Source: Nitzschia sp. pyKryTriq1
Taxonomy: Eukaryota; Bacillariophyta; Bacillariophyceae; Bacillariales; Bacillariaceae
DNA: 64,000 nucleotides
Assembly (NCBI GenBank): GCA_956465555.1
Contig: OY101129.1
Span: forward strand, 930,001 to 994,000
Direction of reading: 5' to 3'
Shown: positions 39,507 to 63,722 of the stretch, piece after piece
Layout: every line of letters starts with the position of its first letter
Position numbering within the stretch: position 1 is the first letter of the stretch
Made by a program: the position numbers and the translations under genes
Notes under the pieces: model-generated
The model's input: only the letters and a program-made list of their open reading frames with translations
Told to the model about the DNA's origin: nothing
Database searches by the model: none

Positions 39507-40622
39507 ATGCGACGATGGTGGATTGATACGTCAAGTACTGAAGGCAAACATATAGGTATGGTTACCATGTTGTTGTCAAGGAAGAATTGGTGTTTCTTCT
39601 TGGCGATTGTTTTCCAGCTGAACGTCGGTGGCGATTACGATTCTTTGGTCGTCGTCGTCGTCGACGCGTTGGCACTGTCATCCTCTTCCTCGTCGTCGGC
39701 TTCCCGCCCTCCTCGATCTACCTTCTCTTCTTCTGGTTCTTATTCTTGGACGCCACCCCCCAATGCCCAAATTCTCAGCAACGATCCCTTGATCTACACA
39801 ATACCCAATTTGCTTTCCCTCGAAGAATGTCAAGCCTATCAAGACTATGTGGAAGTGCTCCAAGAACAAGGTGCTCGTGCCATGACACGCTCCAATCCAC
39901 CCGAAGTGTCGATTGATAAATCGAAGCTGTGGCCACTTCCTCTACTGTCACTCGCTGCAGGGATTCCTTCGATTCTCAAATCTAGCGATACCACTGGACA
40001 TTGGAGCTCGTCGATCATGAGCATGGATATCATTGGTGCGGCGCTTCTTCCTGTTGGAATCGCGTTCACTCTTTCCACCACCTTGGTGATCGCCGCCCAA
40101 CCCGTAGTACAAGCGATTTCCAATGCCCAAGACCGCCGCACCAGTGTCGCCATGGCGTTGAATCAAAAGGAAGACATTTCGTTTACTAGGTCTTTTGTGG
40201 ATCGGATTGTCCAATGTAGTACGGGGCAGTATGTGGATTGGGATTGCTGGGAAGCTCCTGTCGTGACCCGCTACGATCCGGGTGCCATTTTTGCCAAACA
40301 CGGGGATGCGTCACCGACGTTGGGCTCGGAATGGGAAATGGAGGGAGGACAACGAGTTATTACCTGTATTTGTTATTTGAATGACTGTCCTGGAGGAGGT
40401 GGAGAAACCTATTTTGATCGACTCGACTTGACAGTCACACCCGAGCCGGGCAAAGCGTTGGTATTTTTCCCGGCCGACTACGACTCGCGTCGAGCGGACG
40501 ACCGTACTACTCATGAATCGTTACCGCCTCTGCAAGATGAAAAGTGGATTGTACAGTTGTTTGGAAGGGTAGGACCTCGAGTCCCGCCACCACTGGGTTT
40601 GCCGGATGAATTCGGATTATAG
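39507..40622 (+). CDS. Prolyl 4-hydroxylase-like 2OG-Fe(II) oxygenase, 371 aa
   Basis: Single exon; ATG at 39507, with possible inner starts at residues 18 and 21 (MLLSRKNWCFFLAIVF) that would open a signal sequence. Residues ~85-371 follow the P4H alpha pattern. The first block is LIYTIPNLLSLEECQAYQDYV. The iron ligands HGD (an HxD) lie near 265 in YDPGAIFAKHGD, followed by LNDCPGGGGETYF and PGKALVFFP. The distal His is in DRTTHESLPP near 335 and the 2-oxoglutarate-binding Lys in KWIVQLF. An unusual hydrophobic stretch (about 173-202, IIGAALLPVGIAFTLSTTLVIAA) sits inside the region before the iron site, where the family usually has a hydrophilic loop. It may anchor the enzyme to the ER membrane. 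Substrate is probably a secreted or ER protein prolyl residue; this is inferred. Confidence 0.85.
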   Translation: MRRWWIDTSSTEGKHIGMVTMLLSRKNWCFFLAIVFQLNVGGDYDSLVVVVVDALALSSSSSSSASRPPRSTFSSSGSYSWTPPPNAQILSNDPLIYTIPNLLSLEECQAYQDYVEVLQEQGARAMTRSNPPEVSIDKSKLWPLPLLSLAAGIPSILKSSDTTGHWSSSIMSMDIIGAALLPVGIAFTLSTTLVIAAQPVVQAISNAQDRRTSVAMALNQKEDISFTRSFVDRIVQCSTGQYVDWDCWEAPVVTRYDPGAIFAKHGDASPTLGSEWEMEGGQRVITCICYLNDCPGGGGETYFDRLDLTVTPEPGKALVFFPADYDSRRADDRTTHESLPPLQDEKWIVQLFGRVGPRVPPPLGLPDEFGL

Positions 40623-46690: not shown

Positions 46691-48151
46691 ATGATGAGCG
46701 GCAGTTTCTTTTCGTTCCCGGCCTTCAACCTGGAAAAACTTTGGGAAGTTTGGTCCACTCGGATCCTCGTAGCGTTGGTCATCATGGCGGTCTTCGATTA
46801 CTGGCAACGGAAGGATCGGCATCAGCATCAGCAGCAGCAGCAGCAGCAGCAACATCCCCGTCAGCGATCAAACCCTGACGTCGCTCCAGTGCTGAGCTAC
46901 GAGCCCATGGACGCCGAAACTACGCCCACGCCCACGACGACAAAGAAGAATCCTCTCCTGGATCAACTAGATCAACAGCGCAAAAATATAAAGCAAGAGC
47001 AAAGCCAGCAAGAGGATCACCCTTCAGTCAACGATGATGATGATTCAGATGGAAACAAAAATTCAAAGAACTCGGAATTGTCGTCCAAACCGAAGCCGAC
47101 TTCACAGACAGCACGAACGGCAGCACCTTCCTCCACCACTGCCAATACTACTGCAATAACTGCCACCCACAATCCACCGCCTATATCCGCCAAAACCAAT
47201 CACCATCCAGGCATGCAAGGATTTGGACACTGGTATGAAACCGAAACTAGTCTCTATCGTATTTATACGCTGGGTCGTCATGACGGAGTCCAAGTCGTTC
47301 CGCCATATGTTCCTCATTCCTATCGAGGAAAGGTTCCGATAAATCTACATGTGACCAACCAGACCAATTCGGTCCTGAGTGTGTACTGGGTCGACTTCAA
47401 GGGCAAACATGTACTCAAGGGGACGATGAAACCGAATCACGTATGGACGCAACAAACCTGGATCGATCATCCGTGGGTGTTTGAAGGGCCGGACATCAAC
47501 GACAACCCCACACCCTATCTCTACTACGTTCCTTATCGAGTCATCCCGACCCTTCCCGAATGTCCTACAGTATATCCTGACGATCCACAAACGGGTCTTC
47601 ATAAATTTGCCATCATTCCTCCTGCAAATAACAAAGTTAATAATAGTCCGTTCCATGTCGGAGTGAGAGACGATGTCCTTCCCTTTCCAGCCGTGGTCCA
47701 CTTTACGACACCCGTTCAAGGAATTACATGGACGCTCCAGCACATGTCCCGTCTCAACTTTTCCTGGAACGACCCTGCCATTGACTTGCTCCAAAAGTAC
47801 TTGACCAATATTGTGGAATCTCCCGAAACGACGAAATATCGTCAATTACGGATAGGAGGAGGACGATCCAAATTTGGGTCTGCCATTTGGAACTACAATT
47901 CGCCGCTGCAGGGACTGTTACTGTCCGTGGGATTTGTGGAACATCAAGGCTATGCCGAGTTGGGGTGTTCGGACAAACCCCTGTCGAGGGATCGGATTCA
48001 AGATTTGGCACTCTTATCCTATCTCATTGCACAATGGCAACGAAAGGAACAACAACAAATCAGTAATTTGACAGCAGCAGTTGAACAACCGGAAGGTGCC
48101 GATGGGTTCGGTAGAGCGGGGTTTGGACGAGTTGGGGGGATGAACTACTAG
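46691..48151 (+). CDS. Membrane-anchored protein with VHL-beta-like and PUB-like domains, 486 aa
   Basis: Single exon, ATG at 46691. A membrane helix lies near residues 23-39 (TRILVALVIMAVFDYW), then a poly-Gln and Ser/Thr-rich linker to about 165. Residues ~215-280 resemble the von Hippel-Lindau beta domain: INLHVTNQTNSVLSVYW, then VDFKGKHVL, then TWIDHPWVF. From the Trp of VYW onward the alignment to human VHL 88-119 needs no gap. It keeps the equivalents of W88, H115 and W117 of the hydroxyproline pocket, with Thr for S111 and Lys for Y98. Residues ~362-450 resemble a PUB domain (LTNIVESPETTKYRQLRIGG; LLLSVGFVEHQGY), a p97/VCP-binding fold. No elongin-binding alpha domain was seen. It ends in a Gly/Phe/Arg tail. 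A role in membrane-linked, p97-assisted protein quality control is inferred. Confidence 0.78.
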   Translation: MMSGSFFSFPAFNLEKLWEVWSTRILVALVIMAVFDYWQRKDRHQHQQQQQQQQHPRQRSNPDVAPVLSYEPMDAETTPTPTTTKKNPLLDQLDQQRKNIKQEQSQQEDHPSVNDDDDSDGNKNSKNSELSSKPKPTSQTARTAAPSSTTANTTAITATHNPPPISAKTNHHPGMQGFGHWYETETSLYRIYTLGRHDGVQVVPPYVPHSYRGKVPINLHVTNQTNSVLSVYWVDFKGKHVLKGTMKPNHVWTQQTWIDHPWVFEGPDINDNPTPYLYYVPYRVIPTLPECPTVYPDDPQTGLHKFAIIPPANNKVNNSPFHVGVRDDVLPFPAVVHFTTPVQGITWTLQHMSRLNFSWNDPAIDLLQKYLTNIVESPETTKYRQLRIGGGRSKFGSAIWNYNSPLQGLLLSVGFVEHQGYAELGCSDKPLSRDRIQDLALLSYLIAQWQRKEQQQISNLTAAVEQPEGADGFGRAGFGRVGGMNY

Positions 48152-57172: not shown

Positions 57173-60100
57173 ATGGCATCTCATTCGGATATCATGATGG
57201 ATACCGATAAAGAAAATGCATCCTCCCAAGAAGGGATCACCGGTAAGTTTGGGCAAGCAAGCTAGAGTAGAGACATTGGCATCAGCCCCGACTCACAAAA
57301 CCTTATTTTCTCTTATATGTCGTGTTAGTGGCAATTCGTATGCGACCGCTCAATAAGGCGGAAGGGGACAAGCAACGAATCTGGAAGGTGCTTAAAAAGT
57401 ATAACTCGGTAGCCCAGACAACCAAAGGAGGCAAGCCTCTCAGTGAAAGAGCAACGGGCAGGAATTTCTTTACCTTCGATAAAACTTTCGGAGAGGAGGA
57501 CGATACACTTCAGGTATACGAAAGCGTGGCAAAGGGCATCGTTTCCTCGGCTGTCAATGGATTGAATGGAACCATTTTCGCTTACGGCCAAACCTCGAGC
57601 GGAAAGACTTACACGATGCAAGGATCTGGCAGCATTGAGGAGGGAGCCTCGTCAACCGGTGGTGGTGTAGTTCACATGGCAGCGAGGGATATCTTCTCCC
57701 ATATTCAGTCGCAACCAAATCGCATGTTCCTTGTTCGAGCGAGCTTTTTGGAGATTTACAATGAGGAGGTCCGTGATTTGCTGTCCAGTACCGGTAATAA
57801 TCTACAGGTCCGAGAGGATCCTCGTCGCGGCGTCTTTGTTCAATCTCAGGAGGAGATTGTTACCGATTTTCAGAGTTTGTTGAAGATTCTGTTTCATGGA
57901 GAAAAGTCTAGAGCCGTTGCCTCTACTGGAATGAACGAGAGGTCTTCGCGCAGTCACACGATTTTCCGGATCACCATTGAAAGTCGCGAAAAGGAAGAGA
58001 ATGAAGGGAACGACGATGAGTACTCGGAGTCGGGAGGATGCGGTGCTGTTCGAGTATCCACCCTGAATCTTGTTGATCTGGCGGGGTCTGAAAGTGTTCG
58101 CCATACCGGAGCGACCGGAGATCGTCAAAAAGAGGGAGGGATGATCAATCAGAGGTAAGAATGCCCCATCGACGAAAGTTCTCTGTAAGTTCCTACTGGT
58201 AATCTCACACTTGTCGCATCCGTAGTCTTTTGACACTTTCCCGAGTCATCGTCGCACTTGGGCAGCCCAATCAGATGCATATCAACTTTCGTGATTCCAA
58301 GCTGACTAGAATCTTGCAACCATCCCTGTCTGGTAACGCCAGGATGGCCGTCATCTGCTGTGCTACGCCGTCGGAATTGTACCTAGAAGAGACTCGATCC
58401 ACACTTCAATTTGCCTCGAGAGCCAAACTTGTGAAAACAAATGCTCAAGTGAACGAGGTACTTGATGATAGATCTATCATTCGGAAACTCCAGAGGGAGT
58501 TGGCCGAAGCACGTGGGGACAAAACAGGACCCGGAACGGAACACCTACGGGCTCTGGAGAACAAGGCCGCCTCCGCCGGTACGGCAGCCATGGAAGCACA
58601 TGAAAAACTGAATCGTCTCAAAGCATCCATTTTGAACGCGAGTGTTTTGTTCGGTGGGAACGGTGTTGCAGTTGGAAGCGATATCGCAGTTGGCGAGGAG
58701 ATTCAACAGCCCTACCAGAATCTTCGATCGCGCAAGCGCCGGCAATCTGACGGTGGCGCTCTGCATTCTTCTCGTTCCACTCCTCTCAAAGCCAATGGAA
58801 ACTTGGTGAGCTCTCCAAAGACCGCCCCGCGAAAAAAGAAAGAGAAAACATACCACCCGGTACTTTCGCCAAGTGCTGAAATGACGATCCTGCGACAAGC
58901 TCTGTCGACCCGAAATGCGTTATCGCGATCGCTCAAGGAAACGCTCGAGAAGAATTCTAAAATCATTGACGCGAAGGAAGATGAACTGAAAAATCTGATT
59001 TCAGAGAACGATGGCCTTGCCGAAGAGAAGGAGCATGCCTATACCGAGCTTTCCAAGGTACAAGATACCCTTACTTCAGTTCAAGCAAATCTTGATGCTA
59101 CCATCTCGGAATACGATACTCTACTCATGGAGAAGGAAAATGTGATTCTAGAAGCTTTTCAAAAGGTCGAAGCAGAGAATATGAAGGTAACTGGCTTGGA
59201 GGATAACAACGCCAAACTTTTGGAGCAACTCGACGCCTTGCAGCAGAAATTCGACTCCTTGCAGGAAGAACGAGTGAGAAGTGCTTTTGAACTTGCACAA
59301 AGCACTGAAGAGAAAGAGAAACTTCAAGCTGAGCGGGACAAAGACCAACAAGCGCTTCATGAAATGAATCAAAGGATGGGAGTCTTGACAACGGCTTCAA
59401 ATGACGCCGAAAAGGCCCTCCACAAGTCGGAAGAGACAATTCGTGACCTACAAGAACAGCTTTCGACCATGCACGAAGAGAAGAATGCCGCTGTGGAGCG
59501 AGCCACAGTCTTGGAGACAGACCTTCTCAAACTCAGAGAGGATTCGGAGGAGGAGCAACGGGTCTCACAAATGTTCAAGGAGGAGATCGAAGCAGATCTA
59601 GAATCGGTCGTCGAAGAAAGGAATGCGGCCCAAGCCCGCACTTCAGAACTGGAAGAGACGTTACAGAAAACTGAAGAGGAACTTGCAAGTATGCAACAAA
59701 AATCCTCCGAGCTGTCCTCGAAGCAAGAACAAGAGTGTGAAGTCTTGCAAGCGGCGATTTCGGATCTTGAAGACAAGCTCGAAACTACCGTGGCGGAAAA
59801 GAATGACGTCCTTGAGCGAGCGTCAGCACTTGAAGACGATCTTCGCGATTATGAGGAAAAGCTCGAATGTGCCAACAAGACAGTGTCAGAAATTGAAACC
59901 GCTGCCTCAACAGAGCGCGACCGGGTTGACAAGATGGTCGAGGATTTTCAAGAAAAGTTGGAAGCTACGGCCACTGAGAAAGCTCAGGCTCTTGCTCGTA
60001 TCGAAGAACTTGAAAGTGACTTGCAGCAAGTAAAAGCTGATTTAGCCGCGGCAATTGAGAAGGAGTCTTCAACTTGGGAAAAGGCCCAAGTGGAAAGCAA

Positions 60101-63100
60101 AAATCACGAGGTCACCATTCAAGAACTTCGGGGACAACTTGACACCATTGCGGCGGAAAAGAGCGAGGCACTCAACCAAAGTTCGGACTTGAGAAAACAG
60201 TTTGCCGAATCTGAAGTCGCTATTCTAGATCTGCGGGAACAACTCGAAACAACCGTAACTGAGAAGGCTGATACATTGACGCTGCTATCATCGCTGAAAA
60301 ACGAACTCGAAGCATCCCATGCAAGCGCGTGCGATTTGTGCGAGACGGTGCGAGAGCTAGAGCACAAAGTCCGCCAAGGTGAAATGGATCTTTCTCATTC
60401 ACAATCTACAGAAAGTTCTCTCGCCGCACAATGCGAGGCTCTCCAACTTGAGCATGCAAATCTTTATCAAGAGGTCGAACAAATTGTACAAGAGAATACT
60501 GAATTGGAGACTTTCTTGAGTCAATCGCAAGAACAAAATGACCGACGGGTTTCAGAAATTCAAGAACAATTGGAATTAACGATCTCTGAGAAGGCCGAGG
60601 CTCTGGATCGCCTCGAAGCGCTTGAAGTTCGTCTACAGGAAGTGCACGCTGATTTAGATGCTGCACTAGCCAGGGCGTCGACAGCATTGGAAATAGCCGA
60701 AGAGGGAAGCAAGACACAAGAGGGTACTATCCAAGAGCTCAGGGAACAACTTGACGCTATTGCGGCGGAAAAGAGTGATGCGCTAGAACGCGCCTCGGAC
60801 TTAGAAAATCAATATGCCGAAGCTGAAATTGCTATTCAGAGTCTTCGGGAACAGCTCGAAACCACAAGTGTCGAGAAAGGTGAGGCCCTGATTCAACTAT
60901 CATCGCTACAGGATGAACTCGAAGAGGAAAATGACCACCGAATATTGGAACTCCAAGAACAACTGGATATTACCACCGCGGAAAAAGCAGATATGCTCGA
61001 TCGCCTCGAATCGCTTCAAGCTGATTTTGATGCCGCGCTGGTGAAGGAGGCCACCGCCACCGAAATGGCGGAAGCGGAAAGCGAAAAAAACGCGAGCACT
61101 ATTCAAGTACTGAGGGAACAGCTCGACGTAATTTCAGCGGAGAAGAGTGATGCGCTAGAACGTGGCTCGGACCTGGCAAAACAAGTGATAGAGGCTGAAA
61201 TCGCACTTCAGCGCTTGAAGCAACAGCTTGAAACTATCACCTCTGAGAAATCAGACGCGTTGAGCCAGCTATCTTCTCAGAAGGATGAATTCGAAGCGGA
61301 ATACCACCGCCAAATATCGGAACTTCAAGAACTATTGGAAGCCTCTTCTACGGAGAAATCCGCTGCTCTAGACCGTCTCGAGTCCCTCGAAGCAAAATGT
61401 CGGGAACTAGAAGATGCTTTAGCCTCCGCGCTGGCCAAGGAGTCTGCCACCTTGGAAATGGCCGAGGAAGAAGGCAAGAATCACGAATGTACTGTTCGAG
61501 AGCTGAGAGAACAGCTTGATGCCATTACGGCGGAAAAAAGAGTTGCACTAGAACACAGCTCAGAGTTGGAAAAAGAGTGCGAAGAAGCTGGAATTGCTAT
61601 CCAAGACCTGCAGGAGAAGCTTGAGATCACCACCGCCGAGAAAGCCGACGCCTTGCATCAACTCTCGTCGCTACAGGACAAACTTGAAGCAGTCGAAGCA
61701 AGCGCATGCGAGTTGCGTGAGTCTCAGGCCGTGCTCGAGTGCCGTTACACAGCACTTGAAAAAGCCAACGCCTCAATTACAGCAGAAAGTGACGAGCTTT
61801 TGTCACTCAAGGCAGAATACGACACTAAGGATGAAGACCTACGAACGCGGTTGGAATTAACGACCCAGGAGCTGGAGACATGCGAAGCGAATGTATCTTT
61901 GCTTAAAGCGGAGAAGGAAGCCTTTGAAGAGCTCATCGAGAAGTTGCAGAGTCAATCATCATCACACCAAGCCGCTCTTGAGAAGGAGCTGGGCGACTTG
62001 CAATCTTTGTACGACGATTCTGATCGCACGTTGAAGCAATGCCAGGTTGATCTTGAATCAGCCATCAGCGCACGAGATAGTGCTCTGTCGACTCTTCGTG
62101 ATCGGGAGGAAGAACGCGATGAGGCCGTTTCCGCGTTGGAAGCTTTATATCAGAAGAACCGAGAGCTTTCCCAGAACCATTTGCATTCACTTTCAAATGA
62201 GAAGGAAATCGGCTTTCAAAAGGAAATCTCCGAGCTCAAGCAAACCAACATGGAGCTCACCCAGCTACTTGCATCAAGCACCTGTTCCCTTAATCACCTC
62301 AAAGGAAGAGTTGCTACATTGGAAAGCGAATTAACTGCGAAGAACAGGGAACTCGAAGACTCTCAATATAGATTGTCACAGCTCGAGGAAGAATTGGCCT
62401 ACGAGGAAAAACTTGCTATGAACCCAGCGGAACATGTTGCGAATCAGCATGAAGCGCTCTTGCAAGAGATCGAATCTCTACAAAAGACCATCGATCTGCA
62501 AAAATCAGAACGTCGAGCAGTCGAAGAGAGCCTGAAAAGGCAAATGGGAGAGGAACAACGGATGCTTTTACAAGAAGGAGAGAAGATGATGGAGTCTCTG
62601 CGCTCCAAAGCTATGGAACTCGAGCAACGTCTGTCGGAGAGTGAGCAAGAAGCCTACTTATGTAGGCAGCAGCTAGTGGAGAAGACCAGCGGATCAGACT
62701 CCCTATCCAACGAGGTCATGCAGCTCAAGGCCAAGATCAAGGAGAAAGACCAGCGAATCAAAAAGTTGCAAACGTTCAAATTAACGAAAGAGTTCGCTGA
62801 AGAGCACAAGCAACTCAAGAAGGATAACAAAAGTCTTCGAGAAGAGCTATCGCGGCTGCAAAAGGAGTTAGTCAGGCTTCAATCAGATCTCATGTCATCG
62901 GACTCTGACTCAGGGCTTCGAACAGAAATCAGCGAACTTCGTTTTGACAAGGAAGCGCTCGAGAAGAAGCTACGAAAGTTTGCCGCTCATTGCCAAAGAC
63001 TAGAAGACGACAAGGCTGGAATGGCATCTGCGTTACGTTCATGCAATATTGACCCGTCAGACTTTGACGACGATATCAAGGAAGCTGTCATTTCACTTTG

Positions 63101-63722
63101 CGATAAGATGACGTCCCTCGACGAAAATGGATCAGTGCGTTCTCGACGTAGCTCAAATGGAAGCGAGAAGCCCGAAGCTGAAAATATGGCTCTACGATTG
63201 AAGCTTGAACGCCTTTCGGCATCTGAAGAAAAACTGAACAGCAAGATCGCTAAGTATCAGAAGGAGATCGAGGACCTTCGGAAGGAGTCTACAGGGGAAC
63301 AAGGCGAGACAGGTCGTAAGCTCCGCTACCTTGAGCAAGAAAACTTGCAGCTCATGCTTGATGTGAAAACAACGAAAAAGCAACTTCAAGTAGCACGAGA
63401 AGAAATCGAGGTCCTTCGAATGAATGCAATGGACAACTCGACCCTCGACTTTGGCACTGTGGACCTGGGATCCGATTCAAGTCAGCTATCCAAAGTTGTC
63501 AAGTCCTCTCAACCACAGGAGCAGCCTAAGAAAGTCACGAAGACCCCATTGCAAGACAAGACAAACGGCTCATCAAAGGAGAACAATGGACACGATCGAA
63601 ACGATTTGAAGCGACCCGTTGGAAGATTGCCAAAAGTAGTCGGAAAGAATGGACCGCGCGCCCCGGGGTTGGGAGAAGCTGCGGTGCAAGGGGACGAAAC
63701 TGGTGAATGTAATCAAAGCTAG
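57173..63722 (+). CDS. Kinesin with N-terminal motor and very long coiled coil (CENP-E/kinesin-7 type), 2130 aa (3 exons)
   Basis: Exons are 57173-57242, 57329-58154 and 58226-63722. Introns of 86 and 71 nt have GTAAGT/TGTTAG and GTAAGA/CCGTAG ends, and the frame is kept (GITV-AIRMRPLN; INQ-SLLTLSRV). The motor domain (about 23-380) has all nucleotide motifs: P-loop GQTSSGKTYTMQG near 110, switch I NERSSRSHTIF, switch II NLVDLAGSE near 272, then NFRDSKLTRILQPSLSGNA. The motor start without extension and the very long stalk suggest kinesin-7 (CENP-E-like). The tail (about 560-2000) is almost continuous heptad coiled coil with about four similar ~125-residue units around REQLDAIAAEKSDALE. A basic C-terminus (KVTKTPLQDK...LPKVVGKNG) could bind microtubules. 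A role in chromosome alignment or vesicle transport is inferred. Confidence 0.92.
60116..61600 (+). repeat. Diverged ~125-residue repeats in the kinesin coiled coil
   Basis: Four related units begin near 60117, 60729, 61098 and 61490 with the phrase (T/V)(I/V)xxLRxQLDxIxAEKxxALE. Spacings are about 612, 369 and 392 nt, so the first gap covers more than one unit. In-frame duplication in a coiled coil lengthens the stalk without losing heptad phase. Confidence 0.65.

Follow-up and report, generated by a model that had tools for sequence, protein, structure and literature searches.

The beta domain of the von Hippel-Lindau protein (VHL) is known chiefly as the reader of an oxygen-sensing ligase. 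In VHL, hydroxyproline is contacted by W88, Y98, H110, S111, H115 and W117, and the hydroxyl group of Y98 is bonded to the hydroxyproline carbonyl, as described in PMC9528729. According to PMC6650433, animal VHL proteins hardly vary at W88, Y98, I109, S111, H115 and W117. The beta domain is transplantable, as exemplified by an engineered VHL-beta/F-box chimera, which reads hydroxylated HIF (PMC13223302). A bacterial protein with a VHL beta domain is EMK97_00595 of Litorilituus (PMC9002001), and ORFs of Nostoc and Calothrix encode others.

PUB domains can bind the C-terminal tail of the AAA ATPase p97, also named Cdc48. Their p97-tail pocket is described as the motif YxxN(x)9Y plus K/RxxN, and R55 of PNGase as essential (PMC6995525). 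K50 is reported to be part of the PNGase pocket as well (PMC8181520), and N58 of PNGase is described as contacting the p97 carboxylate. SPATA2 is given as an example of a PUB domain that does not bind the p97-interacting motif (PIM; PMC6995525). The HbYX tail of Cdc48 is stated to be usually highly conserved among eukaryotes (PMC5070193).

Each of the two domains is known, and their combination is undescribed in the open PMC literature that was searched, in which no paper pairing a VHL beta domain with a PUB domain was found. To our knowledge, there is no description of this combination. Here we report an ORF of the diatom Nitzschia sp. pyKryTriq1 that encodes a VHL beta domain, a PUB domain and a membrane-targeting segment in one protein, a combination that is real and unusual. 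Our preferred explanation, to which we assign a probability of about one half, is a membrane-tethered Cdc48/p97 cofactor, in which the PUB domain would tether Cdc48 and the VHL beta domain would hold a client or partner.

Chain layout and the N-terminal hydrophobic segment

The ORF is located in a 64-kb window, the whole stretch of DNA that was analysed. From the N- to the C-terminus the chain is composed of a hydrophobic segment, a low-complexity linker, the VHL beta domain, the PUB domain and a Gly-Phe tail (Table 1). The residues Q, N, S, T, P, H, K, D and E make up 77% of the linker. Residues 284-360, between the VHL and PUB parts, gave no Pfam match at E <= 1, and an NCBIfam scan of the chain yielded no match of weight. 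The repeat in the C-terminal tail is reminiscent of an SHP box without matching it, and the SHP box pattern [FW]xGxGxx-hydrophobic had no match in the protein. Neither tRNAs nor Rfam families at gathering level were detected within the window. Elsewhere in the window, one ORF encodes a further protein that is likely membrane-bound and has ubiquitin-binding parts. Two ORFs separated by 116 bases, perhaps an intron, encode a kinesin-like motor that continues into a long coiled coil.

Table 1. Coordinates of the ORF, its features and other genes within the 64-kb window.
Feature	Residues	Position	Strand	Basis
Whole ORF	486 aa	46691..48151	+	single uninterrupted frame
Hydrophobic core, between R24 and D36	25-35	46763..46795	+	Kyte-Doolittle scan
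Low-complexity linker (about 134 residues)	45-178	46823..47224	+	composition
VHL beta domain	about 207-308	47309..47614	+	Pfam match 210-271; outer limits by eye from model
VHL hydroxyproline-pocket equivalents		47387..47476	+	alignment to human VHL
BC-box-like string, F at last position (rejected as elongin box)	348-357	47732..47761	+	motif scan
PUB domain	about 363-455	47777..48055	+	Pfam match 363-420; C-terminal rest by eye
Putative p97-tail (PIM) pocket	Y370, N373, K382, Y383, R387	47798..47860	+	register with PNGase
Gly-Phe-Arg repeat GFGRAGFGRVGG	close to C-terminus	48104-48139	+	
Two UBA matches, leucine-rich repeats, apparent membrane helix		27505-29439	+	membrane helix by eye
2OG-Fe(II) oxygenase		39507-40622	+	Pfam 2OG-FeII_Oxy_3
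Kinesin-like motor, then long coiled coil		57340-63722	+	by eye

The initial annotation had proposed a membrane helix in the chain. A hydrophobic targeting segment is indeed present, but it is weaker than stated and is perhaps a signal peptide. The uncharged core comprises only 11 residues, the best 19-residue Kyte-Doolittle mean is 1.8 (residues 17-35), and a basic stretch (R40, K41, R43) follows the core. As a rule of thumb, a core of 11 residues is compatible with a signal peptide and with a weak signal anchor. The segment is plausibly a signal anchor but may be a cleaved signal peptide.

The main rival explanation, which we regard as unlikely, is that the ORF encodes a periplastidal PUB protein that belongs to SELMA, the ERAD-like import machinery derived from the symbiont. 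The hydrophobic segment would then be the signal peptide of a bipartite signal, the basic stretch would be transit-like, and the PUB domain would bind the symbiont Cdc48 during plastid import. The length of the core equals that of a signal-peptide core, yet the 24 residues ahead of it are long for a signal peptide and, by eye, the residues around positions 31-35 make a poor signal-peptidase site. In favour of this explanation, Table 2 of PMC6610115 includes a PUB protein specific to the symbiont (sPUB) for Phaeodactylum tricornutum. Among the open PMC papers, none was found on a PUB domain with SELMA in diatoms or with the periplastid.

The VHL beta domain and its bacterial relatives

The VHL beta domain was detected with the Pfam model PF01847, above its curated cut-off of 21 bits, both in the whole chain (22.5 bits, E 1.2e-4) and in residues 200-285 alone (26.6 bits, E 6e-6), in agreement with the VHL-beta-like domain that had been annotated initially. 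An HMM built from 13 bacterial VHL beta domains scored 56.0 bits for the Nitzschia domain, 51.7 bits on the whole 486-aa chain and 38.2 bits on human VHL; the best of 5000 shuffles of the domain reached 13.5 bits, and 656 shuffles were reported at all. A search of the PDB with the single sequence of the VHL region retrieved no VHL structure at E <= 10. A profile of the region together with 66 bacterial rows (71 fragments minus three of L029, L012 and L032) matched human VHL at E 3e-17, and hhalign of the same alignment against human VHL gave a probability of 98.5%; these two values describe the family, because the Nitzschia domain is only one of 67 rows.

A structure model of residues 195-335, calculated with 63 bacterial rows after three more had been left out, has seven strands that form a beta sandwich. 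Its mean pLDDT is 72, with block means of 90-96 across residues 215-264. Foldseek returned 75 PDB matches at E <= 0.001, and those among the 50 listed are all VHL complexes. The best E value among these 50 is 1.8e-6, and the query TM-scores are modest (0.41-0.49), with low-confidence ends of the model. A second VHL beta domain above the inclusion threshold was not detected in the 64-kb window with an earlier bacterial HMM, of which two of the 13 seeds were mis-cut. In a BFVD search, the model showed weak structural similarity to uncharacterised proteins of giant viruses (Marseillevirus LCMAC102, E 2.2e-4; Pandoravirus macleodensis, E 4.7e-4).

The alignment to human VHL given in the initial annotation, with W88, H115 and W117 kept, Thr for S111 and Lys for Y98, was reproduced. 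The equivalent residues in the Nitzschia protein are W233 (W88), K243 (Y98), Q255 (H110), T256 (S111), H260 (H115) and W262 (W117); in addition, N223 corresponds to N78, and the equivalent of I109 is also Gln. Four residues of the five-residue hydroxyproline pocket of pVHL (W88, Y98, S111, H115, W117) are thus present, with S111 as Thr, and Y98 is replaced by Lys, which removes the hydroxyl group that bonds the hydroxyproline carbonyl.

The alpha domain with its elongin C-binding BC box, a feature of pVHL-type CRL2 receptors, was not found. The VHL alpha-domain family is absent from the six Pfam families listed for the whole chain at E <= 10, which accords with the earlier remark that no elongin-binding alpha domain is visible. 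The protein might bypass cullin-elongin, as had been proposed. A motif scan picked up one BC-box-like string (Table 1), which was rejected as an elongin box. It is at chance level, as each shuffled chain is expected to contain 0.30 strings of this kind, and by eye it coincides with the expected helix 1 of the PUB domain. We take it as chance or as this helix.

Bacterial VHL beta domains were collected from three sources, i.e., three plasmid records found with tblastn, 30 loci found by pattern, and matches of the Pfam model in genomes. The model had matches in 42 of 1368 genomes (9/292, 7/398, 3/396 and 23/282), four of which were centre genomes already known as positives. Residues were tallied in 40 of the 46 distinct domains chosen with Pfam, after the removal of six that were centres or identical to pattern-found domains. 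The search patterns behind the 30 pattern-found loci include some of the tallied residues, and these loci were counted only within the 71-row total. N78 and W88 are kept in 40/40 of the tallied domains, H115 and W117 in 39/40 each, and Ser or Thr is present at position 111 in 37/40, in a sample whose profile-based choice favours conserved positions. Of the five pocket positions counted, that of Y98 varies most, with Tyr in 24 and Lys in one of the 40 domains (Tyr in 30/46 before the six were dropped). In the bacterial loci L034-L081 the human hydroxyproline pocket is mostly kept, even though bacteria would not be expected to have HIF and elongin. In three other loci (L023, L026 and L029) the VHL beta domain, present in two copies in L029, follows a region with HEFxHxxH, which by eye is metallopeptidase-like.

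The near-invariance of W88, H115 and W117 across bacterial domains makes their conservation a family trait and not a mark of HIF-type reading. Four pocket positions (W88, S/T111, H115 and W117) are near-invariant in bacteria and the fifth is most often Tyr, which argues that the pocket chemistry is not tied to HIF. The proposal of the initial annotation that a hydroxylated client is read is thus not supported, since the residues quoted for it are near-invariant in bacterial domains too and the Y98 hydroxyl is lost to Lys. The loss of Y98 alone need not exclude some ligand, because none of the other four positions varies as much. Hydroxyproline reading by the Nitzschia domain is possible, and none of the observations points to it specifically.

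In the explanation of the initial annotation, which we consider very unlikely, the VHL beta domain would read a client that carries hydroxyproline, and p97 would receive this client from the PUB domain, in place of a cullin-elongin ligase. The equivalents of W88, S/T111, H115 and W117 would fit such a reader, and the engineered chimera illustrates that the beta domain can serve as a detachable one (PMC13223302). However, these residues are unspecific in view of the bacterial domains, Y98 is Lys, and I109 and H110 are both replaced by Gln. A gene for a 2OG-Fe(II) oxygenase, which contains HGD at residue 265 and is prolyl-4-hydroxylase-like by eye, lies about 6 kb upstream of the ORF and could be counted in favour, but such linkage carries little weight in a eukaryote, in which adjacency need not imply a link. 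Highly improbable in our judgement is the wider proposal of a cullin-free degradation or extraction adaptor, in which the VHL beta domain of a membrane-anchored protein would read a modified, possibly prolyl-hydroxylated client and the PUB domain would deliver it straight to Cdc48/p97. If it were true, the VHL pocket would be older than HIF and elongin and would have been wired to differing degradation machines by lineage.

The PUB domain and the putative p97-tail pocket

The Pfam model of the PUB domain (PF09409, curated cut-off 34.3 bits) matched residues 344-466 alone with 35.5 bits (E 9.2e-9), above the cut-off, and the whole chain with 32 bits (E 1.2e-7), just below it. The assignment as a PUB-like domain in the initial annotation can thus be retained. 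When the region was compared with PDB sequences, PNGase PUB structures were the best matches, at a weak E value of 0.12 and with unrelated chaperone chains close behind. A single-sequence structure model of residues 167-486 had a mean pLDDT of only 33, and its PUB part was not usable.

The pocket residues are in register with Y38, N41, K50, Y51 and R55 of PNGase (Y370, N373, K382, Y383 and R387, respectively). When the chain was shuffled 20000 times, a YxxN(x)9YxxxR string arose in 53 of the shuffled sequences; the real copy lies inside the independently detected PUB domain and in the PNGase register. At the position of PNGase N58, the Asn of K/RxxN, the Nitzschia domain has Gly, and there is a two-residue insertion nearby. 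The initial annotation had stated that PUB domains recruit p97. For this domain the YxxN(x)9Y motif and the Arg of PNGase and UBXD1 are in favour of that function and the Gly is not; judged from motif identity with these two proteins, the PUB pocket would likely bind p97/Cdc48.

It would be difficult to account for the same motif if the compartment of the protein did not contain Cdc48, which speaks against an exported or lumenal protein whose two domains are protein-binding modules without relation to Cdc48. This explanation, which we hold to be quite improbable, draws on the 64 bacterial VHL beta ORFs examined with a crude rule, by which 37 start in a signal-like manner and 14 contain a lipobox-like string.

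Searches for relatives were negative within their respective reach. Single-sequence searches, which reach close relatives only, yielded no confirmed relative of the whole protein in viral contigs and none of residues 174-486 in genome contigs. The bacterial VHL alignment and a PUB pattern likewise retrieved no relative from viral contigs. Using tblastn, matches were at chance level both for the PUB region in plasmids, with a best E value of 0.5, and for residues 167-486 in phages, with a best E value of 1. PF09409 had no match in one bacterial genome and 14 controls, by which absence is not shown. Among the open PMC papers, none was found on bacterial von Hippel-Lindau domains and horizontal gene transfer.

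A possible membrane-tethered Cdc48 cofactor compared with known systems

In the preferred explanation, the membrane-tethered Cdc48/p97 cofactor, the N-terminal hydrophobic segment would anchor the protein, and the large C-terminal part would face the cytosol, a topology suggested by the basic residues that come after the hydrophobic segment. The flexible linker of about 134 residues would bear the VHL beta domain, with the PUB domain behind it, and the C-terminal tyrosine tail (PIM/HbYX) of Cdc48 would sit in the PUB pocket, as motif identity suggests. The VHL beta domain might serve as a binding head at the membrane, where it would hold a client or partner and either present it to Cdc48 or place Cdc48 next to it. 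Both domain identities, the PUB pocket residues and, at the level of a model, the VHL fold were observed, and we infer the topology and the binding of Cdc48 and client. A VHL beta domain without a detectable elongin-binding part that is joined to a module of the p97-binding type fits an older, portable binding domain.

The Nitzschia domain directly matches bacterial VHL beta proteins in tblastn (best E 2e-5), and its residues Q109, T111 and P116 (human numbering) are the commonest ones in the bacterial domains (22/40, 28/40 and 16/40, respectively). In contrast to the Nitzschia protein, many of the bacterial proteins look exported, and a PUB domain was not found in the one such genome that was checked. 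With human pVHL, the substrate receptor of CRL2-VHL, it has in common the VHL beta fold and the residues N78, W88, H115 and W117, with S111 as Thr, but it differs by Lys at Y98, by an alpha/elongin domain not being detected, and by carrying a PUB domain and, at the N-terminus, a hydrophobic segment. The sPUB of the SELMA machinery of Phaeodactylum tricornutum, described as symbiont-specific (PMC6610115), is by this description similar in being a PUB protein of a diatom. Like the p97 cofactors PNGase, UBXD1, HOIP and plant PUX2, the Nitzschia protein has a PUB domain, and this domain contains the YxxN(x)9Y motif and the Arg that form part of the pocket in PNGase. In contrast to these cofactors, the Nitzschia protein has Gly instead of the carboxylate-binding Asn, and transglutaminase, UBX and RBR parts are missing among the Pfam matches of its whole chain; it contains a VHL beta domain instead.
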